Shown here in pieces: positions 39,265 to 56,026 of a stretch of 57,272 nt of DNA. The stretch covers positions 1 to 57,272 of the forward strand of contig JAFPZF010000052.1 in NCBI GenBank assembly GCA_017417385.1, given 5' to 3'. Source of the stretch: Bacteroidales bacterium. Lineage in GTDB: Bacteria; Bacteroidota; Bacteroidia; Bacteroidales; Marinilabiliaceae. A model generated the notes under the pieces. That model was given only the letters and a program-made list of their open reading frames with translations. It had not been told where the DNA came from and searched no databases. Positions within the stretch are counted from its first letter, which is position 1. Each line of letters starts with the position of its first letter. The translations under genes were made by a program, and so were the position numbers.

Positions 39265-39814
39265 CCTTCAAAAACCCAGTTTTTCTTGATAAGCGACAAC
39301 AGACGGCCGTTGGACTAGTCCGCAATTGATCTCCACATGCTGAAATAGCCATTTAGCCACCATTTCGATAAGGCGCAAAAAGAGCCTCATGGCTCTTTTG
39401 AAGTTGAAAGCAGTTGTGAACGAGTCCATTCCGCAGAAGTACTGGTAGTAGGCGTTCTCGCCGAACTGGGCGACCACGCTCGCGTCCGAAATATTGCGCA
39501 GATGCTTTAAGATAAGAAGTCCGACCATCAGGCGAATGGCTTTGCTGCCCGACCGTTGTTCTTACAGTAAAGTGGAGCAAAGGACTGTTCGAACATATTC
39601 CAGTCTATCATGTTGGCCAACTTATACATTGGGTGCTCGGCGTCGAGCATGGATCTTAGATCCCAGAACAAGGAGACCTGGCAGCAGGCGGATGGCGTTT
39701 TGTACATCTCTAAACTACAAGGTTTTACTATGCAAAGATACAAAATCTTGCTAAACCCCGCAAGAAAAATATAGCTATTTATTTGTGCATCAGTAATTTA
39801 AATGTTTTTGAGGG
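39265..39814 (-). mobile_element. Internally deleted IS5-family remnant
   Basis: Possible terminal inverted repeats CCTTCAAAAAC (39265-39275) and, on the other strand, CCCTCAAAAAC (39814-39804). Between them, on the minus strand, lies the N-terminal part of an IS5-type transposase (MYKLANMIDWNMFEQSF..., YCKNNGRAAKP) with a frameshift near 39530, then LMVGLLILKHLRNISDASVV and YYQYFCGMDSF. This is joined directly to a C-terminal-like AFNFKRAMRLFLRLIE. The catalytic DDE core is absent. A TATCTTTG promoter box remains at 39733-39740. Confidence 0.75.
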
Positions 39815-39822
39815 ACGACTAA

Positions 39823-41646: not shown

Positions 41647-44641
41647 AGGGATTTCTGTCTTTGCGGATTGTAGAATATAACAATGCTTTATCTTCGGTCT
41701 TCTGTATGTCATACAACTTATCACATATCTGGTCAATCTGTCGCCATAGGGAGTTCAGAGATAGTAAGAGTCCCGATGTCTGTGATCCTACACTGTTGCG
41801 TATCAGTTCATTAGTCTGCTCTATCTGCTTCGCAATGTTTGCCAGCCTTGCAATGTCCTGCCCACATTCTGTGAAAGCATCTTTGGGGAAAGGAACTGGG
41901 TCAAGGAACTGTTTGTTGAACTTATAGTAACCGCCTTGTTGTGGATTTGCTATTGAGCGGGCAAGGGTGTTGAAAATTGTCGAGTTGATGATAGCTGCGA
42001 GAGCGTAAAGATGTTTCTCATCTGGTTGATTCACCTGAATGAAAAACATGTTAGCATTGTCGCAATAGACATGTTTTTGCAACACGACAGATGCTTGTGG
42101 ATACTGGGCTGTCATCGGGACGCACAGTTTCTCATATACCGCTCCATGATTGTTGGCTCGCGTAAACAGATGCCAATGGTCAGTAGCGTTGTACTCACTA
42201 TTCCTTTGGGGAAGAGTCTCTACATTCTTGCATATCAAATCTTTGTGTTTTGCAAGATAGGCTCCAGCCTTGGGGAACATGGCAGTAAAGTCGGAAAAGT
42301 TGAGTTCTGTCACTTCTCCATTATCAGTTACAGTGTATGGGAACAGAGCGAAAGTTGTGTGTGGTCGTCTTGTCAATGGTGCAAAATGCTCATTGCAGAG
42401 CAATGGGCGACAAGCCTCTATCTCCAATTCGACATGCTTGTCAATCGCAGAATGACCATATAGAATACCGTTGGACACTTTGTCTCCAACTATTTGGTAG
42501 GCATCGTTCCACAACATCTGCAACCCCACTTTGATATTGCATACATCTCCGAGCGTGCCTAACTCCTCTGACAATCTAAGACGCAAGGCATTAAGTGGAG
42601 CATGTTCAAAGTTCCAAGGAGTTTCACTGAGGGCCTTTGCTGGTAACAATTGCAATCTATCGTCAGTTGAATTCTGATACCACACCTGGGCATTGTTGTC
42701 CTTGTTATTGTCGCAAACCAAAATAGCTACGTAAGTTATCCTGTCTGCAAACAAGTCCGTCTCTGCATAATCGTAGATGCCATTAAGCAATTGTCGAGTG
42801 GTTAGCAGTTTCCTAATCCCCTTGCCGTAATCTGTTTTGAAAAACCTTTTCTGAACTATGTATCCCAACCGCCCATTGTTGTTCAGTAAAGAGATTGCAC
42901 GTTCTATGAATGGGATGGCAAGATCTATCTTGCCATTCTTGCTTGAAGAATATACAGATTTGACATAAATAGCCATTTGGGGTAGGTTGACATTGTATTT
43001 TTTCACCTCCACGTATGGAGGATTGCCTATTACGTAGTCAAAGCCTCCTTGCTCAAAGACCTCAGGGAATGCCTGCTGCCAATCGAAGGCATTGGTGGCT
43101 TGCAATTCGATGATGTCATCATTGATGGACGGGCATATTTCTTCAATGTCTGCACCGACCAAAGAATTGCCACATCTGATATTTGCACCTATTCCGTTCA
43201 AAATCTGAGCGCCAAGCATCCCCACTGCCCCAAAGTTCTTAGGCGCACAGTCATCTATCATTTTAAGCGAGAGCGACATCTTAGTCACCTCAACAGCCTC
43301 TGGATTGATGTCAACTCCGTATAGACAATTGTTTATGACGGCCTTTCGCCCATCAATAGTCAACGTAACAATCCCATCCTGTAGAATATAGAAGCTATCA
43401 TCAATTTGTTCTCCAGCTCTAATGCGTTTTTCTATTTCCCTCACAAGGTATTCGTATGCACCAACAATGAAGACACCGCTACCACAAGCGATGTCAACTA
43501 TTTTTAGTTTTAAAATCTGAGAAACGGAAAAGCATTTAGGGAAATTGGAGAATGCACAATCAATAACATGATTCACTATATGTCCTGGGGTTGTTACTGC
43601 CCCATTGCTTTTTTGAAACTCTTCTTTCAACTCATCAGTCACTTCTCCGTCCCGAACCACAAGTTGATAACCAAGAAACAGATCGTATATGTCGCTGATA
43701 GTTTTAAGTGGTATTACATCAAAACGATATGGTGATGGGTAGTATAGGCTGTTCAGGAATAGTGTGAACACTTCGTTGTCTATCACCAAACTCTGCAATG
43801 GCGCTATTTTTTGGAACATCGGGCCATCGTAGTGGTTGTAGAAGTCGGCATATGAACTCCGTTTGAATGACTCCCAGAAGTTGTTAGAAGCGAAGTCTAA
43901 TAGTAGGTTGCCCTTTTCTAATCCTCGTGATTCGCAAACCCTGATAAACAGCACTCGGTTAATGATAGTCTGTACGTAGAAACTCAAAGTGGCAATATCC
44001 CGAACATCGTTTCTCTCTAGTATGGCTTTAGCTAGTTCCTTTCTGAAGTTTCCAAGCAGTCTTGAAAAGTTTTCATCAAGCGTATTGCCTTTTCCCCTAA
44101 CGAACTGCAAATTGTGCTTGATAATACTTTCTCTGGAAAGATACTCCTTTAGCGTATCGTGCATTTCCACGTATTGTGTATAGTCGCAGAAGAAGATGCG
44201 GGCAAAATCTGCTTCGTCGTTCACGTTGGGCATGACAGAACAATCATAGATAGCCAATTGCTCGAAATTTGTAACGATGGAAAATGGAGCGTTGATAGAC
44301 CATCCGTATGAACGGATCTGAAATGCGACATCTTTATTCGTACTGATGTGTACGGCAAGGCTCTTTGCATCGACAAATGTTAGTGTCACGCTGCCGTTAA
44401 CCAGAGTATAGTCAGGGCGTGTATTTGTAGAACCTATGCCACGTAGTTTTTCTTTCTCGTTGCGACCAAGGGTATGCTCTGTGAGAACTTGTTGTGTGTT
44501 CTGAACGTCCCATCCAAACACCGACAAAAACTCGTCAATCCAAGTCCTCATGGTCGCTTCAGATGAATTGTTAAGTTGACCAGACGACTTGGCATCTTGA
44601 TACTTTCGTATGAGATTTGCTAATAATTCTTTTCTTTGCAT
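41630..44641 (-). CDS. Type IIG-like restriction-modification enzyme
   Basis: A 1003-residue fusion. The N-terminal region holds a PD-(D/E)xK nuclease site: P76-D77 and D91-A-K93 (RPDYTL ... FVDAK). The middle has an adenine methylase with motif I DIACGSGVF (383-391) and NPPYV (540-544). The C-terminal part (about 700-960) resembles a TaqI-like target-recognition domain (QPDEKHLYALAAIINSTIF). Base composition is more AT-rich than the surrounding genes, a sign of transfer. With the separate methylase downstream it forms a compact two-gene system. Confidence 0.82.
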   Translation of the reverse strand: MQRKELLANLIRKYQDAKSSGQLNNSSEATMRTWIDEFLSVFGWDVQNTQQVLTEHTLGRNEKEKLRGIGSTNTRPDYTLVNGSVTLTFVDAKSLAVHISTNKDVAFQIRSYGWSINAPFSIVTNFEQLAIYDCSVMPNVNDEADFARIFFCDYTQYVEMHDTLKEYLSRESIIKHNLQFVRGKGNTLDENFSRLLGNFRKELAKAILERNDVRDIATLSFYVQTIINRVLFIRVCESRGLEKGNLLLDFASNNFWESFKRSSYADFYNHYDGPMFQKIAPLQSLVIDNEVFTLFLNSLYYPSPYRFDVIPLKTISDIYDLFLGYQLVVRDGEVTDELKEEFQKSNGAVTTPGHIVNHVIDCAFSNFPKCFSVSQILKLKIVDIACGSGVFIVGAYEYLVREIEKRIRAGEQIDDSFYILQDGIVTLTIDGRKAVINNCLYGVDINPEAVEVTKMSLSLKMIDDCAPKNFGAVGMLGAQILNGIGANIRCGNSLVGADIEEICPSINDDIIELQATNAFDWQQAFPEVFEQGGFDYVIGNPPYVEVKKYNVNLPQMAIYVKSVYSSSKNGKIDLAIPFIERAISLLNNNGRLGYIVQKRFFKTDYGKGIRKLLTTRQLLNGIYDYAETDLFADRITYVAILVCDNNKDNNAQVWYQNSTDDRLQLLPAKALSETPWNFEHAPLNALRLRLSEELGTLGDVCNIKVGLQMLWNDAYQIVGDKVSNGILYGHSAIDKHVELEIEACRPLLCNEHFAPLTRRPHTTFALFPYTVTDNGEVTELNFSDFTAMFPKAGAYLAKHKDLICKNVETLPQRNSEYNATDHWHLFTRANNHGAVYEKLCVPMTAQYPQASVVLQKHVYCDNANMFFIQVNQPDEKHLYALAAIINSTIFNTLARSIANPQQGGYYKFNKQFLDPVPFPKDAFTECGQDIARLANIAKQIEQTNELIRNSVGSQTSGLLLSLNSLWRQIDQICDKLYDIQKTEDKALLYSTIRKDRNPYGQDN

Positions 44642-44720
44642 AATTCACCCGATATATAGCGTCTTTACTTGTCCCTTAAATCCGTAACAAACGTACAGAA
44701 ACATTTATAACTAATTAATA

Positions 44721-44728
44721 CAAAGGTA
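44721..44728 (-). promoter_or_regulatory. Minus-7 box of the restriction-modification genes
   Basis: TACCTTTG on the minus strand fits TAnnTTTG, about 80 bp before the ATG at 44641, in an AT-rich gap. The rest of 44642-44840 holds no gene that I can recognise. Confidence 0.5.
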
Positions 44729-44840
44729 TTTGGATATGTCGTTTAAATCACCTAAATAGGTGTGTAAATTCAAAAGCAAACAACAAGACCCAAATGCCAT
44801 GACAAAAATAGCTATAAAAACTCAATCTGCAACTAATTGA

Positions 44841-44999
44841 ATTGAATATGGTGGCGCTGCTGTCGTAGATGGACTGTTACGTCCTTTTTCAATTGACAGC
44901 CTAATCGACCAGAAGCTTGGACTTAGGGGTAAGACTATAGCCGCCTTCAAGTATAGCGAAATATTTAGGAGCGTCCTATCCACGACATTGTGCGGCGGG
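44841..44999 (+). mobile_element. IS1380-like transposase fragment
   Basis: The plus-strand frame reads IEYGGAAVVDGLLRPFS..., then SLIDQKLGLRG, KYSEIFRSVL and TTLCGG, which follows the N terminus of IS1380-family transposases (an LIDxxLGxR ... YSxIxRS ... CGG pattern). It is cut exactly where the direct repeat begins (the TGC GGC GGG codons). It has no start codon and no catalytic part. Confidence 0.6.
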
Positions 45000-45027
45000 C
45001 GAAGCCTCTTCGACTCCGCCCGCCGCA
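44991..45027 (-). terminator. Hairpin after the desulfurase gene
   Basis: A GC-rich stem TGCGGCGGGC (44991-45000) / GCCCGCCGCA (45018-45027), with an inner GAAG/CTTC pairing. In this copy the run of Ts that follows in the other copy (38830 and lower) has been replaced by IS1380-like sequence, so termination may be weakened. Confidence 0.55.
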
Positions 45028-45422
45028 TTCCTTATGGAATGGTCGCGTATTATTCCCGACCTACTCCCCTATCTGCCTCTCGACGCTACGATCTTCCTGA
45101 CGGCGACTACGAGCTTGTCCACATCGTCCTTTGTGTTGTATATCGCAAACGTCGGACGTACGCTCATCTCATACCCGAGCGCCCGCAACGCTGGCTGCGC
45201 ACAGTGATGACCCGCCCTGACGGCTATGCCCTCCTTGTCCAGCAGCTGACCTGTCTCCGGCACCGACACGCCCTCTATGACGAACGACACTACTGACACT
45301 CTCCGCTTCGGATTGCCTATCAGCGTGACGCCCGAGATCTGGCTGAGCTGCTCCCTCGCATACTCGGTCAACTGATGCTCGTGTCGCTCTATGCTCCGCA
45401 TCCCGACAGCTCTGACGTAGTC
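44991..45422. repeat. Direct repeat B: 3' end of the intact desulfurase gene
   Basis: Partner of 38831-39262. It includes the end of the desulfurase gene and its hairpin. At the left border the sequence joins the IS1380-like fragment at TGCGGCGG, which both sequences share. Confidence 0.9.
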
Positions 45423-46607
45423 TATCGCCGCCCCGAGTCCTATCGCATCAGCGACATTCGGAGTCCCAGCCTCAAAACGCGCCGGCGCGGCGTTATACTC
45501 GGTCCTCTCTATGGTGACGTCCTTGATCATGTTGCCACCTCCCTGCCACGGCTGCATCTTGTCGAGCAGCTCCTTCTTGCCATAGACGACGCCTATGCCG
45601 TGAGGCCCGTAGATCTTATGCCCGCTGAAGACGAAGAAGTCTGCATCGAGGCGCTGCACATCGACTGTCGTATGCGCTATCGACTGCGCCCCGTCTATGA
45701 GGACGGGTATCCCATGCCTGTGTGCTATGTCGATGATCTTCTCGACGTCGTTGATGGTCCCAAAGGTGTTGTTGACGTGACCGACGCTGACGAATCGTGT
45801 CCTCGGCGTTATCAACCGCTCATACTCGCTCAGTATCAGGTCACCATTGCTGTCGATGGGTATCGCCTTCAGATTCGCTCCCCTCTCGTTGCAGACCTGC
45901 TGCCACGGGACTATGTTCGCATGATGGTCGAGGGCCGAGACTATCACCTCGTCGCCCGGCACGAGGAACTGCCGCCCGTAGGTCTGAGCAACGAGGTTTA
46001 TCCCCTCTGTCGTCCCCCTGACGAAGACTATCTCCTCGACGCTCTTGGCATTGATGAACGCCCTCACCTTCTCTCTCGACTCCTCATACGCGTCTGTCGC
46101 ACGAGCCGCAAGGGTGTGTGCACCCCTGTGTATGTTGCTGTTATAGTTGGTATAGTAGTCGGTTAGCTTGTCGATGACGCTCTGGGGCTTCTGCGTCGTC
46201 GCTCCATTGTCGAGCCATACGAGGTCATGCCCGTTCACTTTCTGCCTGAGGACGGGGAAGTCTTTCTTGACGATCTCTGCATTCAGGGTGTCGGTGTCCT
46301 CGTAGTTCATCGCCCGCAGCTTCTCGCTCTCGGGGATCCCAATGCCAAAACCATAGTTGTTGTCGAGCCCTATGCTTCCGAGGCTTCTCTCGGCCCCACT
46401 CTGCACTCCTCCCCTCTGCCCGACTCCGACTATCTGGTCTAGGCTCCTCGCTATGCCCTCGAGGTTCAAGGCCTCGTCGGGTATCACCTCCCGACGCGCC
46501 TCGACTATCTCCTCGGGACAGTACTTCCGAGCCACCTCCCTCAGCAACGCGAACGTCTCCTCCTCGCTCCCCGTGCTCAGGTTGGTTATGTTATCGATTC
46601 CTGTCAT
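45069..46607 (-). CDS. sufS: Cysteine desulfurase with encapsulin-cargo N-terminal extension
   Basis: A 512-residue PLP enzyme that takes sulfur from cysteine. Residues about 1-107 are an extension rich in Gly, Ser and charged residues, with short helices (EETFALLREVARKY); they are not part of SufS and have the look of the disordered targeting domain of encapsulin cargo. The SufS core follows (FPVLRQKVNGHDLVWLDNGA), with PLP lysine K331 (SGHK) and catalytic Cys C469 (RAGHHCAQPA). Its ATG shares one base with the shell stop codon (TAATG), so shell and cargo are coupled. The last 110 residues are repeated at 38909. Confidence 0.9.
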   Translation of the reverse strand: MTGIDNITNLSTGSEEETFALLREVARKYCPEEIVEARREVIPDEALNLEGIARSLDQIVGVGQRGGVQSGAERSLGSIGLDNNYGFGIGIPESEKLRAMNYEDTDTLNAEIVKKDFPVLRQKVNGHDLVWLDNGATTQKPQSVIDKLTDYYTNYNSNIHRGAHTLAARATDAYEESREKVRAFINAKSVEEIVFVRGTTEGINLVAQTYGRQFLVPGDEVIVSALDHHANIVPWQQVCNERGANLKAIPIDSNGDLILSEYERLITPRTRFVSVGHVNNTFGTINDVEKIIDIAHRHGIPVLIDGAQSIAHTTVDVQRLDADFFVFSGHKIYGPHGIGVVYGKKELLDKMQPWQGGGNMIKDVTIERTEYNAAPARFEAGTPNVADAIGLGAAIDYVRAVGMRSIERHEHQLTEYAREQLSQISGVTLIGNPKRRVSVVSFVIEGVSVPETGQLLDKEGIAVRAGHHCAQPALRALGYEMSVRPTFAIYNTKDDVDKLVVAVRKIVASRGR

Positions 46608-48070
46608 TACTTCTCGACTTTATTCCTGTGCTGGTAATCATGATAGTACCCGACCTCAACGTTCTCGAGGACTGCTATCGCATCGTCTGTCAACGACGCC
46701 AGACTGAAATACTTCGTCAGCAGATAAGACGCTACGCCGAACTTGTCCAGCCCCATCAACCGTGCACTCAGCGACGGCGCTATCTCCCCAGGGATTCCGC
46801 TCTGATGGAGCCCGACGACACCCTGGTTCTGCTCGCCGACTCTGACGAGTATGATCTTCGTCGTACCGACGCCCCTGCCGGTCAGGTACTGTCCCTCGAC
46901 CTCGACTTTGTCGGATGGGATGATCGGGACGCCTCTCCAGAGTATTACTCGCGTCCCGTGTATGTCTGTCGTCACCGGCGGGACTCCCCTCCACGTGCAC
47001 TCCCGCTCAAAGGCTGCTATCGCCCTCGGATTGGCTACGAAGAATGATGGCTCCTTCCATACGAGGCTCAACAGCTCGTCAAGATCGTCCGGCGTCGGCG
47101 CCCCATACCTCGTCGAAATCCTATACGCCGGGTCGACCGACGCTATCAGTCCGAATCGGCTGTTGTTGATGAGTTCCCACTCCTGTCTCTCCTTGATGCT
47201 CTCGATCGAGAGGCGTAGCTGCTCCTCGAGCTGGTTGTACGGCCCGTTATACAGGTCGGAGACTCTCGTGTGTACCCTGACGACGGTCTGCAGGGTGTTC
47301 AGCTGATACTCGGTCGGAGTCTCCTCATAGTCGATGTACGTCTCCGGGATTATGTTGTCCTCCTCATGCCCGCTGACGAGGTCTATGTGCTTCTCCCCGT
47401 GCTCGTTGACTGTCGCCCGCAATCTCAACTGGTTCTCTACCGCTGCCTTGAACTGGTCCTTGAACTCGGGTACCTCGTCGATGATCTTCAAGAGCTCCGA
47501 CAGTCTGAGGCTCAACAACGTCGCCGGCGTCAACGCCCTGACTGTCACACTGCTCGACGCCTCACTCGTGATGTCCGCCTCGCCAAAGTACTCGCCGTCC
47601 GAGAGTAGCGCTATCCGCAGCTCCTCCCCGTGAGACCCGTGCTTGATGACCTCTACCTGTCCGCTCCCGACGATGAAGAACTTCTGCTTGTCCTTGCCCT
47701 CGCTGACGAAGTTGTTGCCTATCTCGACGTCCTTTGTCTCAAACGATGAGGCAAGTCTGTCGACTATTCCCTCGTCGATGTCGGTGAAGAGGGCTATGGT
47801 CTTCAGGCTCGATGCCGTCACGCTGATCTTGCCGTCCTCTTTGCTCAGTGCGATGCGCTGGCTCCTCTTGTTCTCGACCTTCGTCCTGTTTACTCTGTAT
47901 GTGCCTCCCGTCACCTGTACCCACGGCAGCAACTTCAATAGCAGCCTCGGGGTGATGCTCCCCATCTGAGGCGCCGTCTTCGCTGTCGTTGCCAGTTTTC
48001 TTGCCGTGCTCGTCGTGACGCTCCTCTGGAGGTTGCCGTCGTTCGTTCCGTTGTTCTCTATTGTTGCCAT
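46607..48070 (-). CDS. Family 2B encapsulin shell protein with cNMP-binding-type domain
   Basis: A 487-residue shell protein. Residues about 1-85 form the N-arm and first HK97 part, about 88-215 a cyclic-nucleotide-binding-type domain (ALFTDIDEGIVDRLASSF, FFIVGSGQVEVI, YFGEADI), and about 220-487 the rest of the HK97 fold (SRFGLIASVDPAYRIS, FFVANPRAIAAFE, LTGRGVGTTKIILVRVG). This arrangement is that of family 2B encapsulins; automatic annotation tends to call such proteins Crp-like regulators. The Arg that binds cyclic-nucleotide phosphate in CRP is replaced (EASSSVTVRA). The neighbouring desulfurase is the expected cargo. Confidence 0.88.
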   Translation of the reverse strand: MATIENNGTNDGNLQRSVTTSTARKLATTAKTAPQMGSITPRLLLKLLPWVQVTGGTYRVNRTKVENKRSQRIALSKEDGKISVTASSLKTIALFTDIDEGIVDRLASSFETKDVEIGNNFVSEGKDKQKFFIVGSGQVEVIKHGSHGEELRIALLSDGEYFGEADITSEASSSVTVRALTPATLLSLRLSELLKIIDEVPEFKDQFKAAVENQLRLRATVNEHGEKHIDLVSGHEEDNIIPETYIDYEETPTEYQLNTLQTVVRVHTRVSDLYNGPYNQLEEQLRLSIESIKERQEWELINNSRFGLIASVDPAYRISTRYGAPTPDDLDELLSLVWKEPSFFVANPRAIAAFERECTWRGVPPVTTDIHGTRVILWRGVPIIPSDKVEVEGQYLTGRGVGTTKIILVRVGEQNQGVVGLHQSGIPGEIAPSLSARLMGLDKFGVASYLLTKYFSLASLTDDAIAVLENVEVGYYHDYQHRNKVEK

Positions 48071-48122
48071 TTTCTATTTTGTTTATTTTGTTTGTTGTAT
48101 TGGTTTCTGTTCGTTTTTATGA

Positions 48123-48179
48123 GGGAACTTCTAGATATTAGGTTTTGCAAGGCAGTAAAACCCATTTACAGAAGTTCGC
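48123..48179. repeat. Short inverted-repeat element (mini-MITE-like)
   Basis: Ends GGGAACTTCTAGATATT (48123-48139) and, on the other strand, GCGAACTTCTGTAAATG (48179-48163) resemble the termini of the larger element at 48453-48713. Between them are about 20 bp only. It lies between the TusA-like gene and the shell gene and may be a solo derivative. Confidence 0.5.
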
Positions 48180-48189
48180 TTTTCTCGCC

Positions 48190-48414
48190 CTACTTCTCTA
48201 TGACGACCCGATACGTCGTCCCCTCGACATGCTCTGTCGAGAGCACCTTGTAGCCCTGCTCCTGCGCATTCCTCGGGACGTTGTCGAGCGGCTCACCCTC
48301 GCTCAGCAGAACTTCCAGCGTCTCGCCCTTCTGCAGCTTCGTCAACTCTATCTTCGTCCGGACAAACGTCATCGGGCAATGCTCCTTCGTGATGTCTAAT
48401 GTCTTTGTTGCCAT
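48190..48414 (-). CDS. TusA-like sulfur carrier protein
   Basis: A 74-residue protein of the TusA/SirA fold. The active cysteine is C13 in EHCPMTFVRTK, where classic TusA has CPxP; the CPMTF form is found in a sulfurtransferase subgroup of the family. The C-terminal GTTYRVVIEK is also typical. TusA proteins take persulfide sulfur from cysteine desulfurases and pass it on, which fits the desulfurase two genes away. Confidence 0.85.
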   Translation of the reverse strand: MATKTLDITKEHCPMTFVRTKIELTKLQKGETLEVLLSEGEPLDNVPRNAQEQGYKVLSTEHVEGTTYRVVIEK

Positions 48415-48452
48415 TGTATTCTATCTGTTTTGCGTTTCCTATCATTGCTTAT

Positions 48453-48713
48453 GGGAAGTTCTAGAAATTAGATTTTTCACTTGTGCGATTAAGCGAGTGC
48501 AATAGAGCTTGCTCTAATTGCCGAGCGGTAGCACATGAGGCGAAGCCAAGGCGCACGAGGCGTTGAATACCGGAGTGTACTGGAGTACATGAGGATTTTA
48601 ACGTCCGAAGTGCAACATTCCGATTAAGCGAGAGCAATGGAGCTTGCTCCTATTGCCGAGCGTGAGGAATGAAGGCAACGCCAACGCCGAAAAAGCAATT
48701 TATAGAAATTCCC
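48453..48713. repeat. MITE-like element with terminal inverted repeats
   Basis: 261 bp with terminal repeats GGGAAGTTCTAGAAATT (48453-48469) and, on the minus strand, GGGAATTTCTATAAATT (48713-48697), 15 of 17 identical. Inside are palindromic CAATAGAGCTTGCTCTAATTG and CAATGGAGCTTGCTCCTATTG units and CGATTAAGCGAG. It is non-coding and fills most of the 304-bp gap between the TusA- and DsrE-like genes. A second copy lies at 1-263. Confidence 0.75.
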
Positions 48714-48718
48714 TTCCA

Positions 48719-49198
48719 TTATATAAACAGGGTCTGCCCCCCTTCGCTCAACCTCAAGAACGACGCCACCCCGAGCACATCCTTCACCTCCGGTATGAAG
48801 TCCTCCTTCTTGAGTCCCAACACGTGCATCGCCATCTCGCACGCATACATGTTGACCCCCAGCACCTTCGCAGCCTCTACGAGCTCCTCCAGAGTCGCCA
48901 CGTTGTTCTTCTTCATCAGGCTCCGGAATATCTTCGGACCTATCCCCCAGAAGTTGAATCGCGTCGTTGGCGTCACGCTAAGTCCACCCATCATGAAGCC
49001 GAATATCTTTGTCAGCCAGTTTCCTCCGACAAACGACCGACCCTTCTTCACCTTGATGGCGTCCAGCCCCCAGAACGTGAAAAAGAGGTTCACCTCATAT
49101 CCGACTGCCGCCGCGCCTGTCGCCAAAGTGAAGACTGCTGTCAGCTTGTCAAAGTCCCCACTGAACGCTATAATGCTTAGTTTCTTCTCCTGTGCCAT
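48719..49198 (-). CDS. DsrE2-like sulfur-transfer protein
   Basis: A 159-residue protein of the DsrE/DsrF/DrsH-like superfamily (DsrE2 or peroxiredoxin-like type). It has LSIIAFSGDFDKLTAVFTLA, a hydrophobic middle with FFTFWGLDAIKV, and the conserved cysteine C120 in NMYACEMAMHVLGL. Relatives carry persulfide sulfur between TusA and other partners. It starts a sub-operon with a promoter box at 49328-49335, followed by the TusA-like gene, the shell gene and the desulfurase. Confidence 0.82.
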   Translation of the reverse strand: MAQEKKLSIIAFSGDFDKLTAVFTLATGAAAVGYEVNLFFTFWGLDAIKVKKGRSFVGGNWLTKIFGFMMGGLSVTPTTRFNFWGIGPKIFRSLMKKNNVATLEELVEAAKVLGVNMYACEMAMHVLGLKKEDFIPEVKDVLGVASFLRLSEGGQTLFI

Positions 49199-49327
49199 TT
49201 CTGTCTGTTATTCTTGCTCAATATCTATTATCCACCTCCCCTACGTTCCTATGCGCAATTTTCTTCACTTTCTTCTATTTGCAGTGTACTCAAACGCATA
49301 TTTACGTATTCTTGGAAGTATATACTG

Positions 49328-49358
49328 CAAAATTAGCAATGTTAGAATTAATATCCAA
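49328..49358 (-). promoter_or_regulatory. Promoter of the dsrE2-tusA-encapsulin-desulfurase genes
   Basis: On the minus strand the minus-7 box is TAATTTTG (49335-49328) and a TTG (49358-49356) lies 20 nt before it, near the normal spacing. Transcription would start near 49321, with a leader of about 120 nt. It lies in the 364-bp gap between hcyD and dsrE2, which also holds two tandem copies of GGTTAGACCTG (49434-49455) and the terminator at 49500. Confidence 0.5.
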
Positions 49359-49499
49359 TACCAACCTGATATTATTTTCCCTACCACGTTTATGGCATCT
49401 TCCCGCTCTCCATACCGCACCTATATGCCACTCAGGTTAGACCTGGGTTAGACCTGGTATAGAGATGCTCCCCTTCTCCTCCAACATTCTCACCCCACT

Positions 49500-49530
49500 A
49501 AAAAACATCGGGGCGAGACTTCCGCCCCAC
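49500..49530 (-). terminator. Rho-independent terminator of the hcyS-hcyF-hcyD genes
   Basis: Read on the minus strand: stem GGGGCG (49528-49523), loop, CGCCCC (49515-49510), then GATG and six Ts (49505-49500). It lies 35 bp after the JAMM protease gene and separates that group from dsrE2. Confidence 0.7.
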
Positions 49531-49562
49531 CCCGACTGTCAATAGTTTTCTTCTTATTGGCC

Positions 49563-49964
49563 TTAACTCTCCCCCTCAACAAGCACCTGCTTCTCAACGA
49601 CTGCCTTGTCCTTTATCTTGAACGAGTTGACGTTCACCACCCCGTCGAGCAACGACACTATGACGTACTCTATCGTCGGGTCCGCAGCAAGCCGCAAGTC
49701 CTCCTCCGACGGCCGCGACGGCGACGCAGGATGGCTATGCCAGTTGGCTACTATCCTCAGCCCCTTCTCTCTCGCATACCTCATCGCCGCAAACTGCGCC
49801 TTCGGGTCAAGCGTGAAATGCTCCTCCGAATGGTCTATGTTCTCCATCGCATAGTTCTCGGTCACGACATCTCCCTTCCCGAGCAACAGCCCGCACGCCT
49901 CTATCGGCGCCTCAGCCTTGGCGGTCCTGACTATCTCGTCGAGTATCTCTCTGCCTATCTCCAT
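49563..49964 (-). CDS. hcyD: JAMM/MPN+ metalloprotease (HcyD/Mec+-like)
   Basis: A 133-residue zinc isopeptidase of the M67 family. The JAMM motif is complete: E22 and the block HSHPASPSRPSEED with H76, H78, S86 and D89. Relatives trim residues after the GG of ThiS-like carriers (HcyD of Wolinella) or release cysteine from CysO (Mec+). Because the carrier encoded two genes upstream ends GGGAA, its most likely job is removing the terminal alanines. It lies 5 bp after the E1 gene. Confidence 0.85.
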   Translation of the reverse strand: MEIGREILDEIVRTAKAEAPIEACGLLLGKGDVVTENYAMENIDHSEEHFTLDPKAQFAAMRYAREKGLRIVANWHSHPASPSRPSEEDLRLAADPTIEYVIVSLLDGVVNVNSFKIKDKAVVEKQVLVEGES

Positions 49965-49969
49965 AGCAC

Positions 49970-50779
49970 TTAGTGTTTCTTCAGGTCACACGCGGCCTGC
50001 TCGTAGTCTATCAACTTGTCTATCGTCGGATTCTTTCCGCATATCGGGCACTTCTCGCCCTTCTTGACATTGAAGGTCTTGAAGTTCATCGTCTTCGCGT
50101 CAAACGTCAACAGCTTGTTGGTCAACAGCTCCCCGACTCCCGTGAAGTACTTCAGGACCTCCGCCGCCTGTATCGTACCGAGCATACCGGCTATGGCTCC
50201 GAGGACCCCCGCCTGCGAGCACGTCGGCACTGCTCCTACTGGGGGCGGCTCCTTGAAGAGGCACCTGTAACATGCCGAGCCTGGCACGTGGGTGAACGTC
50301 TGCCCGTTGAACCTCAATATGCCTCCGTGGCTGAACGGCTTCCCCGCCATCACGCACGCATCGTTGATCAAAAACTTGACTGGGAAATTATCCGTCCCGT
50401 CGACTATGAAGTCATACTTGCTGATTATTTCGAGTGCATTCCCGCTCCAGAGGAAGTCCTGATATGTCTCGACTTTGACGTCGGGATTTATCGCCCTTAT
50501 CTTCTCAGCTGCACTCTCTACCTTGGGTCTCCCGACGTCCTTTGTGAAGTGTATCACTTGCCTCTGGAGGTTCGAGAGATCGACGACGTCTGCGTCTATC
50601 AACCCTATCCTTCCGATACCAGCCGCAGCAAGGTATAGGCTCACCGGAGCCCCGAGCCCGCCCGCCCCTACGACGAGGACGCTCGCATTCATTATCTTCT
50701 CCTGACCCTCGACGCCGACATCCTGAAGCAATATGTGCCTCGAGTAGCGTACTATCTGGTCTTCGTTTAGCTCTATCAT
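49970..50779 (-). CDS. hcyF: ThiF/MoeB-type adenylyltransferase (HcyF-like E1)
   Basis: A 269-residue E1-like enzyme that adenylates the C-terminal Gly of a ubiquitin-like sulfur carrier. It has GAGGLGAPVSLYLA (nucleotide loop), SNLQRQVIHF, DGTDNFPVKFLINDAC, and zinc cysteines in CYRC and CPIC. There is no rhodanese domain, so sulfur must come from another donor. Its start overlaps the carrier gene by 4 bp (ATGA). ThiF or MoeB proper are alternatives; context favours the Hcy type. Confidence 0.82.
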   Translation of the reverse strand: MIELNEDQIVRYSRHILLQDVGVEGQEKIMNASVLVVGAGGLGAPVSLYLAAAGIGRIGLIDADVVDLSNLQRQVIHFTKDVGRPKVESAAEKIRAINPDVKVETYQDFLWSGNALEIISKYDFIVDGTDNFPVKFLINDACVMAGKPFSHGGILRFNGQTFTHVPGSACYRCLFKEPPPVGAVPTCSQAGVLGAIAGMLGTIQAAEVLKYFTGVGELLTNKLLTFDAKTMNFKTFNVKKGEKCPICGKNPTIDKLIDYEQAACDLKKH

Positions 50780-50988
50780 GCCGCACCTCCTCCCATGAAG
50801 TACAGGAAGTCTATGCTGTCACCTTCCTTGATCACTGTCCTGTCCCACTCCTCGCGCTCCGCAAACTGCTCGTTCAGCTGGACCGAGACCATATCTGGCT
50901 GCAACACTCCGCTCTCCTCTATCAACGCCTTCAACGTGATGCCGTCGCGGACTTCCTTGCTCTCGCCGTTTACTGTTATCTTTGCCAT
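50776..50988 (-). CDS. hcyS: ThiS/MoaD-like sulfur carrier with GGGAA tail (HcyS-like)
   Basis: A 70-residue ubiquitin-fold sulfur carrier. It opens with ITVNGESKEVRDG and ends YFMGGGAA. Active carriers such as ThiS end in Gly-Gly; here two alanines follow, so it needs trimming before adenylation. The same logic is established for HcyS in Wolinella succinogenes, where HcyD and HcyF act on it and the thiocarboxylate gives sulfur for homocysteine. Both partner genes follow directly. It is the first gene of this group, with a promoter box at 51068-51075. Confidence 0.85.
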   Translation of the reverse strand: MAKITVNGESKEVRDGITLKALIEESGVLQPDMVSVQLNEQFAEREEWDRTVIKEGDSIDFLYFMGGGAA

Positions 50989-51067
50989 GTCTGTCTATGT
51001 TGTTTTATTATTGTCTGTTCCTATTGTTGTCCCGAGGACCCGCACTGCTCATCCTCGTTTCTGCTTG

Positions 51068-51075
51068 CAAAGTTA
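51068..51075 (-). promoter_or_regulatory. Minus-7 box of the hcyS operon
   Basis: TAACTTTG on the minus strand, an exact TAnnTTTG, with ATTG about 20 nt upstream as minus-33. Transcription would start about 73 nt before hcyS. Confidence 0.5.
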
Positions 51076-51120
51076 CGTCGTCACGCTCTTTCTGGCAATA
51101 ACTTTGATATGTTATCTTTC

Positions 51121-51136
51121 TACCACTGATGTGGTA
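51121..51136. promoter_or_regulatory. Inverted repeat between divergent sulfur genes
   Basis: TACCAC-TGAT-GTGGTA is a perfect 6-bp inverted repeat centred between the hcyS and sulfhydrylase promoters. A looser pair GTATAG (51144-51149) / CTATAC (51168-51173) lies next to it. A dimeric regulator controlling both directions could bind here; which one is unknown. Confidence 0.4.
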
Positions 51137-51175
51137 TTTTGCAGTATAGCTATTCTATTTCTGATTTCTATACCA

Positions 51176-51183
51176 TAATTTTG
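51176..51183 (+). promoter_or_regulatory. Minus-7 box of the O-acetylhomoserine sulfhydrylase gene
   Basis: TAATTTTG fits TAnnTTTG and lies 29 nt before the ATG at 51213, giving a leader of about 22 nt. Confidence 0.5.
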
Positions 51184-51212
51184 TCCTGCAAATATAGAAA
51201 CGGACAGCAATT

Positions 51213-52448
51213 ATGAATGCTCAGACAAAGATCATCAAATCCCCATTCCAGAAGCCCGACGCCCACGGCGCCCTCGCTATGCCGGTCTACTACTCCGCAG
51301 CCTTCGAGTTCCCCTCAGCCAAGGCTATGAGCGACGCCTTCTGCGGCCGCTCTCCTTCCCACTCCTACTCTCGTATATCGAACCCGACTGTCGCCTTCCT
51401 CGAGGATCGTGTCAAGACGGTCACGGGCGCCATTAGCGTCACCGCTCTCACCTCCGGTATGGCGGCTATCTCCTACTCGCTCCTCGCTGTCTCCGCCGCT
51501 GGCCTCAACATCGTCGCCTCCAAGCACCTCTTCGGCAACAGCGTGTCCCTCATGCGAGACACTCTCGGCGGTCTCGGCGTCGAAGTGCGTTTCGTGGACT
51601 TCCGGGACATCAACGAGGTCGCTGCCGCTATCGACGACAAGACCTGCGCCGTCTTCTTCGAGATTATTACTAACCCTCAGCTCTTTGTCACCGACATCAG
51701 GGCTGTCGCCCGTCTGGCTCACGACGCCTCCGTCCCTGTCATCGCCGACACTACTATTATTCCTTTCACTGAATTCTCCTCCCGCGAGCTCGGCGTCGAC
51801 ATCGAGGTCGTGTCAAGTACTAAATATGTCTCCGGCGGCGGCACTGGTCTCGGCGGCCTCCTGATAGACAACGGTATCTTCGACTGGTCTAAGTCTCACA
51901 CCCCAGCCCTCAAGTCGCTCGCCTCCAAGGTCAGCGGTCGCCTCGCCCTCACCGCCCGCGTCAAGACGGAACTTCTGACGAACGTGGGCGCTATCATGAC
52001 TCCCCAGGTTGCCTATATGGAGACTCTCGGCCTCGAAGCGCTCTCCCTCCGCTACCGCCAGCAGTCTCAGTCGGCCTTCTTCCTCGCCCAGCACTGCCAG
52101 TCGCTCCCGGGTATCTCGCGAGTCAACTACGCGGCTCTCGACGGCAACCCCTACAAGGAGCTCGTCGAGAGTCAGTTTCACTCCCTCCCCGGCGCTGTCT
52201 TCACTATCGACGTCGCCTCTCCCGAAGCCGCCTTCTCTTTCATCGACCACCTGTCGGTCATCCACCGCGCGACGAATCTCTTCGACAACCGCTCTCTGGC
52301 TATTCACCCGGCCTCTACTATCTTCGGCCGCTTCACCCCCGCTCAGCGCGAGGCTATGGGCGTCCTCGATACCACTATCCGCCTCAGCATCGGCCTCGAA
52401 GACCCTCAGGACCTCCTCGCAGACATTGCTCAGGCTCTCAACGCCTGA
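51213..52448 (+). CDS. metY: O-acetylhomoserine sulfhydrylase-like PLP enzyme
   Basis: A 411-residue enzyme of the Cys/Met-metabolism PLP family. It has YSRISNPTVAFLEDRV (cofactor-phosphate loop), SGMAAISYSLLA, and the PLP lysine K204 in SSTKYVSGGGTGLGG. MetY and its relatives make homocysteine from O-acetylhomoserine and sulfide or a thiocarboxylate donor. It is divergent from the hcy genes, as expected for the acceptor enzyme of HcyS. Cystathionine gamma-synthase or methionine gamma-lyase are alternatives within the same family that the sequence alone does not exclude. Confidence 0.82.
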   Translation: MNAQTKIIKSPFQKPDAHGALAMPVYYSAAFEFPSAKAMSDAFCGRSPSHSYSRISNPTVAFLEDRVKTVTGAISVTALTSGMAAISYSLLAVSAAGLNIVASKHLFGNSVSLMRDTLGGLGVEVRFVDFRDINEVAAAIDDKTCAVFFEIITNPQLFVTDIRAVARLAHDASVPVIADTTIIPFTEFSSRELGVDIEVVSSTKYVSGGGTGLGGLLIDNGIFDWSKSHTPALKSLASKVSGRLALTARVKTELLTNVGAIMTPQVAYMETLGLEALSLRYRQQSQSAFFLAQHCQSLPGISRVNYAALDGNPYKELVESQFHSLPGAVFTIDVASPEAAFSFIDHLSVIHRATNLFDNRSLAIHPASTIFGRFTPAQREAMGVLDTTIRLSIGLEDPQDLLADIAQALNA

Positions 52449-52766: not shown

Positions 52767-53426
52767 ATGAACGTTACCACAATAAATAGAATCGGCTCCG
52801 AAGCCATATATGCAAACATACCATCTGCAAATATTATCCGCTCCCTGGCTACGTCAGGCGACTGCATAGACCGTTTCTATCTCACTGGTTTCGAGGGCCT
52901 GTGCCTCTCCATGAACCACGCACAGCTGACCGAGGCCGTCATATCGAGCGTCGTCCCTATGGGCGGCGAACTGCTCGTCGTCGGTAGCGAGGACTGCTGC
53001 TCTCTCTGGAGAAATGTCTGCCACTCCCTCAATATCCGCGTGAGCGCTGTCGACACCGCCAAAGAGGACGTCGTGACTGCCGTCGCTACTATCCTCTCTG
53101 TCAACCCTCGCATATCTCACGTCATGACGTCAACGCACCTCGACTCTAATGTTCTCTGCCAGCTCGGCGCTACTATCCGCAGCTACCACAAGCAGCTGGT
53201 CGTCGACAACTCGGATGACGAACTGACAGTCGAGGCTATCACTGAGGCCGGCATCGATTTCGCTATCGCCGCCTCCGAGACCGAGGACAACGTATCTGTC
53301 ATCATCGCGCGCCGTAGCCGCCTCGTCATGACCGAGGGCAACGCACGCCGCTCCTCTCACGACATCTACGCCCTGTGGCAGTCCTCCCTCTCATCGCGGA
53401 ATTCCACTTGGCTCCCGATGGCGTAA
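52767..53426 (+). CDS. PhnW-like transaminase fold, truncated and lacking the PLP lysine
   Basis: A 219-residue protein that follows 2-aminoethylphosphonate-pyruvate transaminase through the large domain: SVVPMGGELLVVGSEDC, NPRISHVMTST, QLVVDNSDDEL, and GNARRSSHDIYALWQSS. In PhnW the PLP lysine lies in a SSNKC-like stretch; here the same place is AASETED (168-174), so no Schiff base can form. The C-terminal domain (about 140 residues) is missing. There is no frameshift or internal stop, so it may be a maintained non-catalytic relative or an old remnant. Confidence 0.65.
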   Translation: MNVTTINRIGSEAIYANIPSANIIRSLATSGDCIDRFYLTGFEGLCLSMNHAQLTEAVISSVVPMGGELLVVGSEDCCSLWRNVCHSLNIRVSAVDTAKEDVVTAVATILSVNPRISHVMTSTHLDSNVLCQLGATIRSYHKQLVVDNSDDELTVEAITEAGIDFAIAASETEDNVSVIIARRSRLVMTEGNARRSSHDIYALWQSSLSSRNSTWLPMA

Positions 53427-53588: not shown

Positions 53589-53604
53589 TTAAAAGGTGAT
53601 AGAC

Positions 53605-54117
53605 ATGAAAAAAGTACTGATTGTAGTCGACATGCAGAACGATTTCTGCACAGGTTCTTTGTCCAACAAGACTGCTTGCGACGTCTCTGCCAACATTGCG
53701 AAGCTGATCAAGCAGGCCAGAGACAACGGGATGAGCGTCATCTACACACGGGACACTCACGACTCCGACTATCTGACGACTATGGAGGGCAAGAAATTGC
53801 CTGTCGTCCACTGCGTCAAGGGCACCGACGGGTGGAACATTATCGACAGTCTCAAGCCCCTCCCATCCGACACTATTATCGACAAGAAGCACTTCGGCTA
53901 CGACGACTGGCAGTCGCTCATCTCCCCTGGCGACGAGGTCTGGATGTGCGGGACGTGCACGGATATCTGCGTCGTCTCCAATGCTCTTATCATCAAGGCA
54001 ATCGACAATGTCAGCGTGACGGTCTTCGAGAACTGCTGCGCTGGCACCACCGTGGACAATCACGATGCCGCCATCCAGGTGATGAGGATGTGCCAGTGTG
54101 AGATCGAAAATGTCTGA
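53605..54117 (+). CDS. pncA: Isochorismatase-fold cysteine hydrolase, nicotinamidase-like
   Basis: A 170-residue protein from ATG 53605; a GTG nine bases earlier would add three residues. It has D9 in IVVDMQNDF, a lysine in DKKHFGYDD, and the nucleophile Cys in GTCTDICVVSNAL, the Asp-Lys-Cys triad of nicotinamidases. As pncB follows, deamidation of nicotinamide to nicotinate is the likeliest reaction. The metal-binding DxHxxxH of classic PncA is not obvious (DTHDSDY is nearest), so another amide could be the substrate. Confidence 0.75.
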   Translation: MKKVLIVVDMQNDFCTGSLSNKTACDVSANIAKLIKQARDNGMSVIYTRDTHDSDYLTTMEGKKLPVVHCVKGTDGWNIIDSLKPLPSDTIIDKKHFGYDDWQSLISPGDEVWMCGTCTDICVVSNALIIKAIDNVSVTVFENCCAGTTVDNHDAAIQVMRMCQCEIENV

Positions 54118-54118
54118 C

Positions 54119-54150
54119 GGCTACTCCCCTGAGTAGCTTTCTTTGTTTTT
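54119..54150 (+). terminator. Terminator after the nicotinamidase-like gene
   Basis: Stem GCTACTC (54120-54126) / GAGTAGC (54131-54137), loop CCCT, then TTTCTTTGTTTTT. It lies before pncB, so pncB needs its own promoter or read-through. Confidence 0.7.
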
Positions 54151-54207
54151 AGATGCTCACTGATAGCTTGTATTCAATGAAACAATAACCTATTAGACAT
54201 ATTGACT

Positions 54208-55485
54208 ATGTGGGAGATTAACGGACAGTTGACCAACGACTTGGAACTGGTCAAGCAGCATTTTGGTCTGAAGCACTTGCCTATGGTGAGGTCGTTGCTC
54301 GACCAGGATATGTACAAGTTCAGCATGGGGCAGTGCTATCTTCATCAGTTCAGCACTGTGTCGACTGTATGGGATTTCAAGGCGAGGAACGTTGGCGAGG
54401 GAAAGAAGGAGAAGTACACGGAGGCTGATGTCGAGGAGGTGAAACGTCAGCTTCAGGCGTATTGCTCCCTGAGATATACAAATGACGAACTGAACTGGCT
54501 GGGAAACGCTGACCGCCCATGGATTCACAAGGACTATGTCGAGGTCCTGCGCGACTGGCGTCCGCATATTGAGGACTTCGAGGTGACGACCGACCCGCAG
54601 ACTGGTCTCGCTATTCATTTCCATGGCGTCCAGTGGAAGGTCAGCTACTACGAAATTCCGGTACTAGAGATCGCTGCCGAGGTCTACTACCGCAATCATT
54701 GCGACTACGAGGAGCTCAGCAAATCGTTCAAGAGAGAGACGGAGGAGAAGATCCGCAAGGTTAAATCAGGCACTTACGACATCGGCAACTTCTCGGAGTT
54801 CGGCGCCCGCAGACGCGTGTCGTTCGAACTGCAGGACTGGCTGATTGCGTCGCTGAAGGAGGCTAAGATCCCGGGCTTCATCGGGACGTCCAACGTCTTC
54901 CTGGCAATGAAGCACGGACTGAAGCCTGTGGGCACGATGGCTCACGAGTTCTTTGAGACTATGCAGGGATACCGCCTCTACAACTTGGCATATACCAACA
55001 AGGTAGCTCTGGACGCATGGGTCCGCGAGTATGGCGTCATGAATGGGATTGCATTGACCGACACCCTCGGGACGGACATCTTCCTGCGTGACTTCAAGAC
55101 GACTTTCGCAACGCTGTTCTCGGGCGTCAGGCACGACAGCGGAGACCCTTACGACTGGGGACACAAGATGATCGCCCACTACAAGAAGCTCGGCATAGAC
55201 TCCAAGCAGAAGACGCTGCTCTTCAGCGACAGTCTCAACTTCGAGAAGGCTACCAACCTCAACAAGCATTTCAAGGGACTGATAAACACTGCCTTCGGCA
55301 TTGGCACCTACCTGAGCGGTCCGCAGACTATCGAGGCTCTCAACATTGTCTGCAAGGTCGTACTGGTCGACGGCAAGGATGTCGTCAAGCTGAGCGACTC
55401 GCCGGGCAAGTGCATGTGCAGGAACCAGGAGTATATCGACTACGCAGCAAGGACTATCAAATGGAGGCTGGAGCATGAAGAATGA
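54208..55485 (+). CDS. pncB: Nicotinate phosphoribosyltransferase
   Basis: Joins nicotinate to PRPP, the committed step of the Preiss-Handler NAD salvage route. From ATG 54208 the product is 425 residues (a TTG at 54202 would add two). Features are LLDQDMYKFSMGQ near the N terminus, NFSEFGARRRVSFELQ, the catalytic-His region GTMAHEFFETMQGY, and GVRHDSGDPYDWGHK for phosphate binding. The N terminus is about 25 residues longer than the usual start at the LLDQD motif. Its end overlaps the NUDIX gene by 11 bp. Confidence 0.9.
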   Translation: MWEINGQLTNDLELVKQHFGLKHLPMVRSLLDQDMYKFSMGQCYLHQFSTVSTVWDFKARNVGEGKKEKYTEADVEEVKRQLQAYCSLRYTNDELNWLGNADRPWIHKDYVEVLRDWRPHIEDFEVTTDPQTGLAIHFHGVQWKVSYYEIPVLEIAAEVYYRNHCDYEELSKSFKRETEEKIRKVKSGTYDIGNFSEFGARRRVSFELQDWLIASLKEAKIPGFIGTSNVFLAMKHGLKPVGTMAHEFFETMQGYRLYNLAYTNKVALDAWVREYGVMNGIALTDTLGTDIFLRDFKTTFATLFSGVRHDSGDPYDWGHKMIAHYKKLGIDSKQKTLLFSDSLNFEKATNLNKHFKGLINTAFGIGTYLSGPQTIEALNIVCKVVLVDGKDVVKLSDSPGKCMCRNQEYIDYAARTIKWRLEHEE

Positions 55486-56026
55486 CAATATGATTAAGAC
55501 TCACGAGGAGGTCCTGCTCAAGACGCCGGTATTCGACGTAGTTCAGAAGACGTTTGAGAACAATCATGAGCCGATAGGCTTCAAGCCGGTCGGTCTGAAC
55601 TGTCACGACTGGGTCATGATAATCGTCCTGTCACGAGACAAGAAGATGACGGTGGGCGTCCGTCAGCACAGATGGGGAATCGAGAGGGAGACTCTTGAAT
55701 TTCCTTGCGGTACTGTCGAAGAGAACGAGCAACCTGTCGACGCTGCAATCAGGGAGTTCAAGGAGGAGACGAGCATCGACATCGACAACCTGAAGGAGAT
55801 AGCTTGCTTCAATCCCAATGCTGCCTACTTCAACAACACGATGCACATCTTCGTCGGCTACGCTGACTTGCCTCGTCAGTTTGGCGAACTGTCATTGGAC
55901 GAGTTTGAAGATTGCGAGCCATTCATAGCGAAGGTCGAGGAGATAATGCCTTATCTGCAAGAACATGCGATGGGATGGGCTGCGATAGGGGCGCTGATGT
56001 CTAATGGTATCATCAAGACTCGTTAG
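55475..56026 (+). CDS. NUDIX hydrolase (NAD-salvage neighbour)
   Basis: A 183-residue NUDIX protein. The Nudix box begins at GTVEENEQPVDAAIREF and continues KEETSID, with the REF-KEE-x-S core. It resembles the ADP-ribose pyrophosphatase group, with an N-terminal KTPVFDVVQKTFENN strand region. Overlap with pncB by 11 bp suggests joint work on nicotinate or ADP-ribose metabolites; the substrate cannot be read from the sequence. Confidence 0.85.
   Translation: MKNDNMIKTHEEVLLKTPVFDVVQKTFENNHEPIGFKPVGLNCHDWVMIIVLSRDKKMTVGVRQHRWGIERETLEFPCGTVEENEQPVDAAIREFKEETSIDIDNLKEIACFNPNAAYFNNTMHIFVGYADLPRQFGELSLDEFEDCEPFIAKVEEIMPYLQEHAMGWAAIGALMSNGIIKTR

Follow-up and report, generated by a model that had tools for sequence, protein, structure and literature searches.

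A Family 2B encapsulin and a cysteine desulfurase encoded beside a probable thiocarboxylate sulfur-carrier module in Bacteroidales

A thiocarboxylate pathway of methionine synthesis that uses HcyS, HcyD, HcyF and MetY was reportedly described by Krishnamoorthy and Begley in 2011, with HcyD said to trim HcyS in Wolinella. The window considered in this work, that is, the whole stretch of 57,272 nucleotides of contig JAFPZF010000052.1 from a Bacteroidales bacterium (assembly GCA_017417385.1), carries genes that resemble this pathway next to those for the shell protein of a Family 2B encapsulin and for a cysteine desulfurase. Encapsulins of Family 2 with desulfurase cargo (SrpI/CyD) have been described (Andreas and Giessen, 2021, PMC8346489), and the present locus is like them in that its shell passes the 2B model, a SufS-type desulfurase with a long extension of low predicted confidence is adjacent to it, and CysE and CysK occur in relatives. 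The accessory genes named for desulfurase shells are serine acetyltransferases and rhodaneses, and the available main text makes no mention of TusA, DsrE, ThiF, MoeB, sulfurtransferase, sulfur carrier or Prevotella (PMC8346489). The operons in row 4e of Iyer et al. (2006), composed of ThiS, JAB, E1, SirA (TusA-type), sulfite reductase and O-acetylhomoserine sulfhydrylase, hold the same module and are close to the shell-free Bacteroidales loci discussed below, and no encapsulin, desulfurase or DsrE2 is named for them in the available text (PMC1779556). Adjacent DsrE and TusA genes with conserved cysteines, as found here, are also known from sulfur oxidisers (e.g., PMC4175335), whereas the setting of the present locus is biosynthetic and not one of energy metabolism. 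Desulfurase shells of Family 2 and carrier operons with sulfite reductase (2006) are known; no description of shell and carrier together was found in the full-text literature searched, a body that leaves most subscription journals and all preprints outside.

The eight genes that an earlier, sequence-only reading had placed at 45069..52448 were all recovered as open reading frames (ORFs) at those positions, with domain calls in agreement:

45069..46607, minus strand, SufS-type cysteine desulfurase (Aminotran_5, 500.7 bits; SufS family above cut-off; catalytic Cys in motif AGHHCAQP; N-terminal extension of ~105-110 residues, a putative loading domain)
46607..48070, minus strand, Family 2B encapsulin shell (encap_f2b NF041163, 568.7 bits, cut-off 400; HK97-type SrpI-like domain with an inserted cNMP-type domain)
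48190..48414, minus strand, TusA-like persulfide carrier (Pfam TusA; CPMT motif)
48719..49198, minus strand, DsrE2-like protein (Pfam DrsE_2, 135.6 bits; Cys within YACEMAMH)
49563..49964, minus strand, HcyD-like JAMM peptidase (Pfam Prok-JAB; HxH..S..D motif intact)
49970..50779, minus strand, HcyF-like E1 of ThiF/MoeB type (Pfam ThiF only, without rhodanese domain)
50776..50988, minus strand, HcyS-like ThiS-fold sulfur carrier (TIGR01683, 64.2 bits, above cut-off; ends FMGGGAA)
51213..52448, plus strand, MetY-class O-acetylhomoserine sulfhydrylase (best PDB match 3ri6), divergent from the other seven genes

That reading had also called the genes contiguous. HcyS overlaps its neighbour HcyF by 4 bp, 5 bp lie between HcyF and HcyD, and the shell and desulfurase genes share 1 base, whereas gaps of 364 bp (HcyD-DsrE2), 304 bp (DsrE2-TusA) and 119 bp (TusA-shell) separate the genes in the middle. 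We consider that the locus serves sulfur assimilation and joins a desulfurase-holding encapsulin of Family 2B to a thiocarboxylate carrier pathway, and assign to this reading a probability of roughly 0.55. It is built on the gene set and its conservation through rearrangement, on the very tight co-occurrence seen in the family sample, on catalytic and relay residues that are intact, and on a C-terminal tail of the carrier that a JAMM protease would need to remove.

A genome-wide scan with two short peptide patterns, taken from the window shell and the shell of genome G058, returned 259 relatives, of which the best 80 loci were read; by design of the scan these are the nearest relatives, and many of them end at contig borders. 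Their records are named Prevotella, Prevotellaceae, Bacteroidaceae and Bacteroidales, many of them after rumen, omasum, abomasum or reticulum samples, and two (L081 and L083) share one isolate name. With an identity floor for each gene and a limit of 8 kb from the shell, TusA, DsrE2 and the desulfurase were each found at 79 loci, MetY at 68, HcyS and HcyF at 63 each, HcyD at 59, CysK at 47, a LuxR-type regulator at 37 and CysE at 12. The complete eight-gene set is present in 53 of the 80, and where at least 5 kb were available on both sides of the shell (43 loci), TusA, DsrE2 and the desulfurase occur in all 43, MetY in 41 and HcyS, HcyF and HcyD together in 38. Lack of neighbourhood conservation in relatives, which the sequence-only reading had named as speaking against it, is clearly not what these counts describe. 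An unsupervised clustering of neighbouring ORFs of at least 100 amino acids, a size for which HcyS and TusA are too short, recovered the shell at 80 loci, the desulfurase at 75, DsrE2 at 72, MetY at 65, HcyF at 59, HcyD at 54, CysK at 45 and the LuxR-type regulator at 36, with all remaining families at 19 or fewer. The arrangement is variable: among 93 loci HcyF can follow the shell downstream or precede it upstream, in the latter case on either strand, and the same is true of MetY. In the 59 loci in which both could be placed, five joint placements occur, and a quick shell tree requires at least 10 changes between them. That the gene set is kept together despite this reshuffling suggests selection for staying together. 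The LuxR-type regulator of these 36-37 Prevotella-type shell loci carries a weak receiver domain (L054:5256-5900); a similar one lies near a shell of family f19 from the same phylum (L038:13069-13713), next to an HPr-like ORF, and no match to it was obtained in the window or at shell locus L034.

Co-occurrence was followed in 151 genomes from the family of Prevotella sp. UBA2754 (G864), a sample that includes the previously known shell genomes G864, G847, G850 and G855. The shell is present in 19 genomes and HcyF with at least 77% identity, a line set after the gap was visible, in 21, covering all 19 shell genomes and 2 of the 132 others; shell and HcyF are 1.1-2.1 kb apart in 16 of the 19. 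When all HcyF matches at E 1e-80 are taken, the counts are 19/19 and 14/132. Of the two close exceptions, which have HcyF and no shell, G892 carries HcyS-HcyF-HcyD next to a sulfite reductase-TusA and to CysH, CysN and CysD, whereas G903 shows the order CysK-HcyS-HcyF-DsrE2-TusA-HcyD followed by CysE, with neither shell nor desulfurase in between. At the level of the order (393 genomes), the shell was found in 10 genomes, HcyF (E 1e-80 or better) in 24 and both in 9, HcyF being present in 15 of the 383 shell-free genomes (Fisher p 2e-11 for the overlap, a value that takes no account of relatedness). Seventeen Prevotella-type loci are without HcyF near the shell, and 11 of these genomes have HcyF of at least 78% identity elsewhere; in Bacteroidales bacterium KHT7 (shell locus L080), HcyF is found on a different contig. 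In the window's own family, the shell occurs in 2 of 71 genomes, the window's genome included, and this rarity suggests gain by transfer or frequent loss.

The carrier module also occurs without a shell. At the shell-free Bacteroidales loci L161, L165, L168 and L169, a sulfite reductase adjoins HcyF, DsrE2, TusA and HcyD, and three of these loci have HcyS as well; at L169, CysK and MetY fall within the module run and siroheme genes adjoin the reductase. The L161 and L169 reductases have ~780 residues and combine sulfite-reductase domains with a C-terminal TusA domain (Pfam), a fusion which suggests that TusA receives the reduced sulfur with no free sulfide in between; at L165 the contig ends within the reductase. 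The fusion genes are located as follows:

L161, 4058-6376, sulfite reductase-TusA (Pfam)
L169, 8946-11321, sulfite reductase-TusA (Pfam)
G000, contig C61, 15123-17438, sulfite reductase-TusA

Matches to this protein were obtained in 12 of the 393 order-sample genomes, all 12 HcyF-positive (10 over query 1-772 or 1-773, G782 over 1-558 and G584 as two contig-end pieces), and none within the 88 shell loci as fetched. Four of the ten order-sample shell genomes carry both shell and reductase (G000, G526, G757 and G841, the window's among them), so that a strict either/or between the two donors was rejected; in G526 reductase and shell share a contig and are 16 kb apart, and in the window's genome the reductase is near cysD, cysN and, by reading, heme/siroheme genes. 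As the window's genome also has the reductase, the shell probably acts as an alternative source of sulfur; the shell-desulfurase and the sulfite reductase seem to replace or to supplement one another as donors to the same module. Since the same genes are found in shell-free module loci, TusA and DsrE2 are parts of the carrier module, and their assignment to the shell system was rejected. The relay from the shell through TusA and DsrE2, as first proposed, has its relay cysteines conserved, but both proteins travel with the module in shell-free genomes.

These data bear on the main rival explanation, a shared regulon with no direct transfer, in which the module would assimilate the sulfur of sulfide or sulfite while shell and desulfurase would form a downstream store for surplus cysteine sulfur. 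The genes would then adjoin because both serve one sulfur supply, like CysE and CysK beside other Family 2 desulfurase shells, and indeed CysK (47/80) and CysE (12/80) are recurrent neighbours, both flank the operon of L034 and adjoin the shell in L038 of family f19, and the window's genome encodes a sulfite reductase-TusA. The enrichment of serine acetyltransferases with desulfurase shells (PMC8346489) and the sulfur storage stated as the role of such cargo (PMC12407261) point in the same direction. Nevertheless, HcyF of at least 77% identity is almost never found without the shell in the family sample, which is tighter than a general sulfur regulon requires, and TusA lies at a median of only 55 nt from the shell. 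We regard the shared regulon as rather unlikely, and both readings place shell and module in one sulfur economy.

With respect to the shell, the SrpI-like HK97-type shell domain is recognized at 370.8 bits (PF19307, cut-off 22.8), the cut-off of the 2B model is passed by a wide margin and the cNMP-type domain (PF00027) is inserted at residues 120-198, which upholds the earlier assignment to family 2B. The match to PDB 9bje reaches 383 bits over residues 7-474, and the three top solved matches span nearly the full shell. The shell peptide patterns matched nothing among viral contigs. A gating of the shell by cNMP was considered and dropped, since 2B cNMP-type domains are reported to bind no cyclic nucleotides (PMC12407261).

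The desulfurase has the N-terminal extension that had been noted beforehand as cargo-type: among the matches listed, those to solved structures begin at residue 106 or later, and in a structure prediction built from 28 aligned sequences (mean pLDDT 76.7) residues 1-110 have block means of 29-72, residues 61-103 are below 50 and values in the enzyme domain mostly exceed 80. This low confidence fits, and suggests, a largely disordered loading region, as far as a predicted model can tell. Motifs were counted in the best single ORF per locus from 82 loci (window, L034 and the 80 relatives). GHHC is present in 78 of the 82 desulfurases, the other four ORFs (L081, L087, L123 and L125) ending earlier. 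The extension varies among relatives (79 of the 82 could be cut for the comparison, one being a 15-residue stub). It differs from the described Family 2 desulfurase cargo in carrying GFG[IV]GIP (67 of 82 ORFs) instead of the two published cargo motifs, neither of which was seen by eye, and in lying outside the part that matches the 2A-cargo desulfurase model NF041166, which was not reached (729.3 bits, cut-off 800; profile positions 217-623 only).

The proteins of the carrier module are equally well preserved. At least one residue follows the Gly run in all 65 HcyS compared, that of the window ending GGGAA, a tail that by its sequence would fit trimming by a JAMM protease. Such a tail is not exclusive to HcyS, since the thiamine-type ThiS of the same genome (L134:6367-6594) ends GGMI; the thiamine-type ThiS of G055 and G064 end at GG, unlike this one. 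The JAMM motif of HcyD is intact in 60 of 61 proteins, the ORF of the exception (L071) stopping before the motif, and the HcyD of the window matches PDB 2kks (96 bits). HcyF has 269 amino acids and its E1 Cys is conserved in 65 of 66, the miss at L123 being another protein (29% identity). With a ThiF domain and no rhodanese domain, HcyF would need an outside sulfur source such as TusA, and the same argument was made in 2006 for operons of ThiS/MoaD-like, JAB, E1, SirA, sulfite reductase and O-acetylhomoserine sulfhydrylase (PMC1779556). TusA, usually the nearest gene upstream of the shell (median distance 55 nt over 88 loci), has its HCPxT motif in 81 of 81. DsrE2 has YACEMAMH in 80 of 81, the miss (L076) being two fragments; the NCBIfam DsrE2 equivalog NF047629 was not reached (69.7 bits, cut-off 210) and the broader Pfam models DrsE_2 and DsrE were. 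The window MetY matches 3ri6, which we take to be the HcyS-dependent MetY enzyme of Wolinella, at 331 bits, with a lead of 62 bits over the next structure (269); as a control, an ordinary MetY of the same genome prefers 8wko, 8sf5, 7kb0 and 4kam, with 3ri6 ranked 35th. The tailed carrier, the JAMM protein, the rhodanese-free E1 and the 3ri6-class MetY are thus features in common with the HcyS/HcyD/HcyF/MetY pathway, whereas the nearly constant DsrE2, the common CysK and an adjacent, probably shelled desulfurase distinguish the present locus.

Homocysteine, the output first proposed, agrees with the class of the MetY, the HcyS tails and the JAMM protein, but it is probably not the sole product: CysK is present so often (47/80; also L034, L153-L160, L169, L175 and L200) that cysteine is probably a second one. 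Furthermore, two other full-length enzymes of the Cys/Met family are encoded in the window's genome (one of them compared with PDB), so that the locus is probably not its only route to homocysteine. A further rival, compatible with the coupling, takes the carrier as mainly cysteine-making, like CysO, with homocysteine as a side branch or second product. In G058 and in most order-level module loci CysK adjoins HcyS or DsrE2, and the 20 kb covered in G058 hold no MetY, the one on another contig of this genome being 55% identical to that of the window; ThiS-JAB-E1-cysteine synthase operons have also been published (PMC1779556). In the window, however, MetY is present and no CysK stands beside HcyS, the CysK match of this genome being on another contig, and MetY, of the 3ri6 class in the window, is found at 68 of the 80 loci, which makes a mainly CysO-like role doubtful. 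A CysE-like ORF at 7918-8853 of the window, ~38 kb from the shell, is 59% identical to the CysE beside the L034 shell.

A role of the carrier in thiamine or molybdenum cofactor synthesis or in protein tagging, instead of amino-acid synthesis, also has some arguments on its side, as HcyS passes the ThiS model, HcyF has the ThiF domain, the JAMM protein scores 70.2 bits with the desampylase model, under its cut-off of 130, and in L038 of family f19 the shell lies near ThiS, ThiG, a ThiH-like radical SAM protein and ThiF. The window's genome, however, has a separate thiamine-type ThiS beside ThiG (contig C80), which makes a thiamine role of HcyS unlikely; no ThiG or ThiH stands beside HcyS in the window, and by reading no ThiG, ThiH or Moa is among the families present in at least 8 of the 80 loci, while MetY and CysK are. 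We consider these roles very improbable.

Therefore, we hypothesize for the coupled locus a route in which the desulfurase would be loaded into the shell by its N-terminal extension and would take sulfur from cysteine, leaving it inside the shell or at its surface as a persulfide or as stored sulfur, which TusA, with DsrE2, would collect at the shell. HcyS would be trimmed by HcyD and adenylated by HcyF, and its thiocarboxylate HcyS-COSH would then be produced by the relay or by sulfide that the relay sets free. From this and O-acetylhomoserine MetY would form homocysteine, and in many relatives CysK would form cysteine from HcyS-COSH and O-acetylserine; cleavage of the amino acid from its carrier may be a further task of HcyD. 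The shell-desulfurase donor probably draws on stored sulfur, or on cysteine under shortage of sulfate or sulfide. In its most specific form, which we put forward tentatively and hold to be possible though somewhat short of even odds, the nanocompartment would be a sulfur-donor organelle, with TusA and DsrE2 docking at the 2B shell, unloading the sulfur of the desulfurase and loading HcyS for methionine and cysteine, in place of the reductase-TusA of shell-free relatives.

Several points weigh against the coupling. The direction of sulfur flow is a guess, and making homocysteine by desulfuration of cysteine costs cysteine. Because TusA and DsrE2 occur with the shell-free module, their presence is explained without the shell and is not by itself evidence for a shell relay; the reductase in four of the ten order-sample shell genomes, that of the window included, and the additional Cys/Met-family enzymes of the latter have to be counted on the same side. 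The co-occurrence is loosened by 12 further shell-free genomes of the family sample with weaker HcyF matches (53-63%), by one of the ten order-sample shell genomes, 65% complete, which is without HcyF, and by the 17 genomes without HcyF near the shell, five of which have no HcyF at E 1e-60 and one a 57% match only. The choice of the 77% line, the relatedness behind the p value and the nearest-relative design of the 80-locus set, given above with the respective numbers, belong here as well.

A different pairing was observed in family f19, where 5 of the 16 fetched shell loci match both ThiS and ThiF queries and one more matches ThiF alone. The loci L036, L038, L042, L043 and L053 combine shell and desulfurase with ThiS-/ThiF-type genes and enzymes of Cys/Met metabolism, L038 encoding ThiG, a ThiH-like radical SAM protein and CysK-type and CysE-type proteins (Pfam), and the desulfurase ORFs of L038, L043 and L040, with 637-724 amino acids, have a much longer extension. 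Desulfurase shells would then be paired with thiocarboxylate carriers in a second instance. By gene content and by the ThiS-cysteine synthase linkage published for Chlorobium and Pelodictyon (PMC1779556), family f19 looks Chlorobium-like.

The rest of the window contains other features. The segment 38831-39262 repeats 44991-45422 with 97.2% identity over 432 nt, the desulfurase reading frame remaining open to its end, so that the 3' end of the desulfurase gene is present twice. The genes enclosed by these copies, at 39823-44641, encode a type II methyltransferase and a type IIG restriction-modification protein (PADLOC); the stretch 38831-45422 resembles an insertion accompanied by a long duplication. 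A short ORF after MetY (52767-53426), partly similar to PhnW-type aminotransferases (NCBIfam, below cut-off) and with no Pfam match, is probably a remnant. It is followed at 53596-56026 by an isochorismatase-fold hydrolase, a nicotinate phosphoribosyltransferase and a NUDIX protein in a row, probably for NAD salvage. Ketoacyl-synthase-, acyltransferase- and phytoene-desaturase-like ORFs at 16399-38735, as read from their translations, look like a cluster of the aryl polyene or flexirubin type.

It has been argued for desulfurase encapsulins, in the eLife paper describing them, that their role could be learned from the fate of the cysteine-derived sulfur, and the knockouts made there showed no growth defect (PMC8049743). 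The present locus names a concrete and testable acceptor chain for the sulfur of a shell-desulfurase system, conserved in dozens of Prevotella-type genomes, and the same module found with the shell, with sulfite reductase and with both offers a natural comparison. The coupling would link encapsulins with ubiquitin-like sulfur carriers, and it bears on the supply of sulfur and methionine in the rumen.

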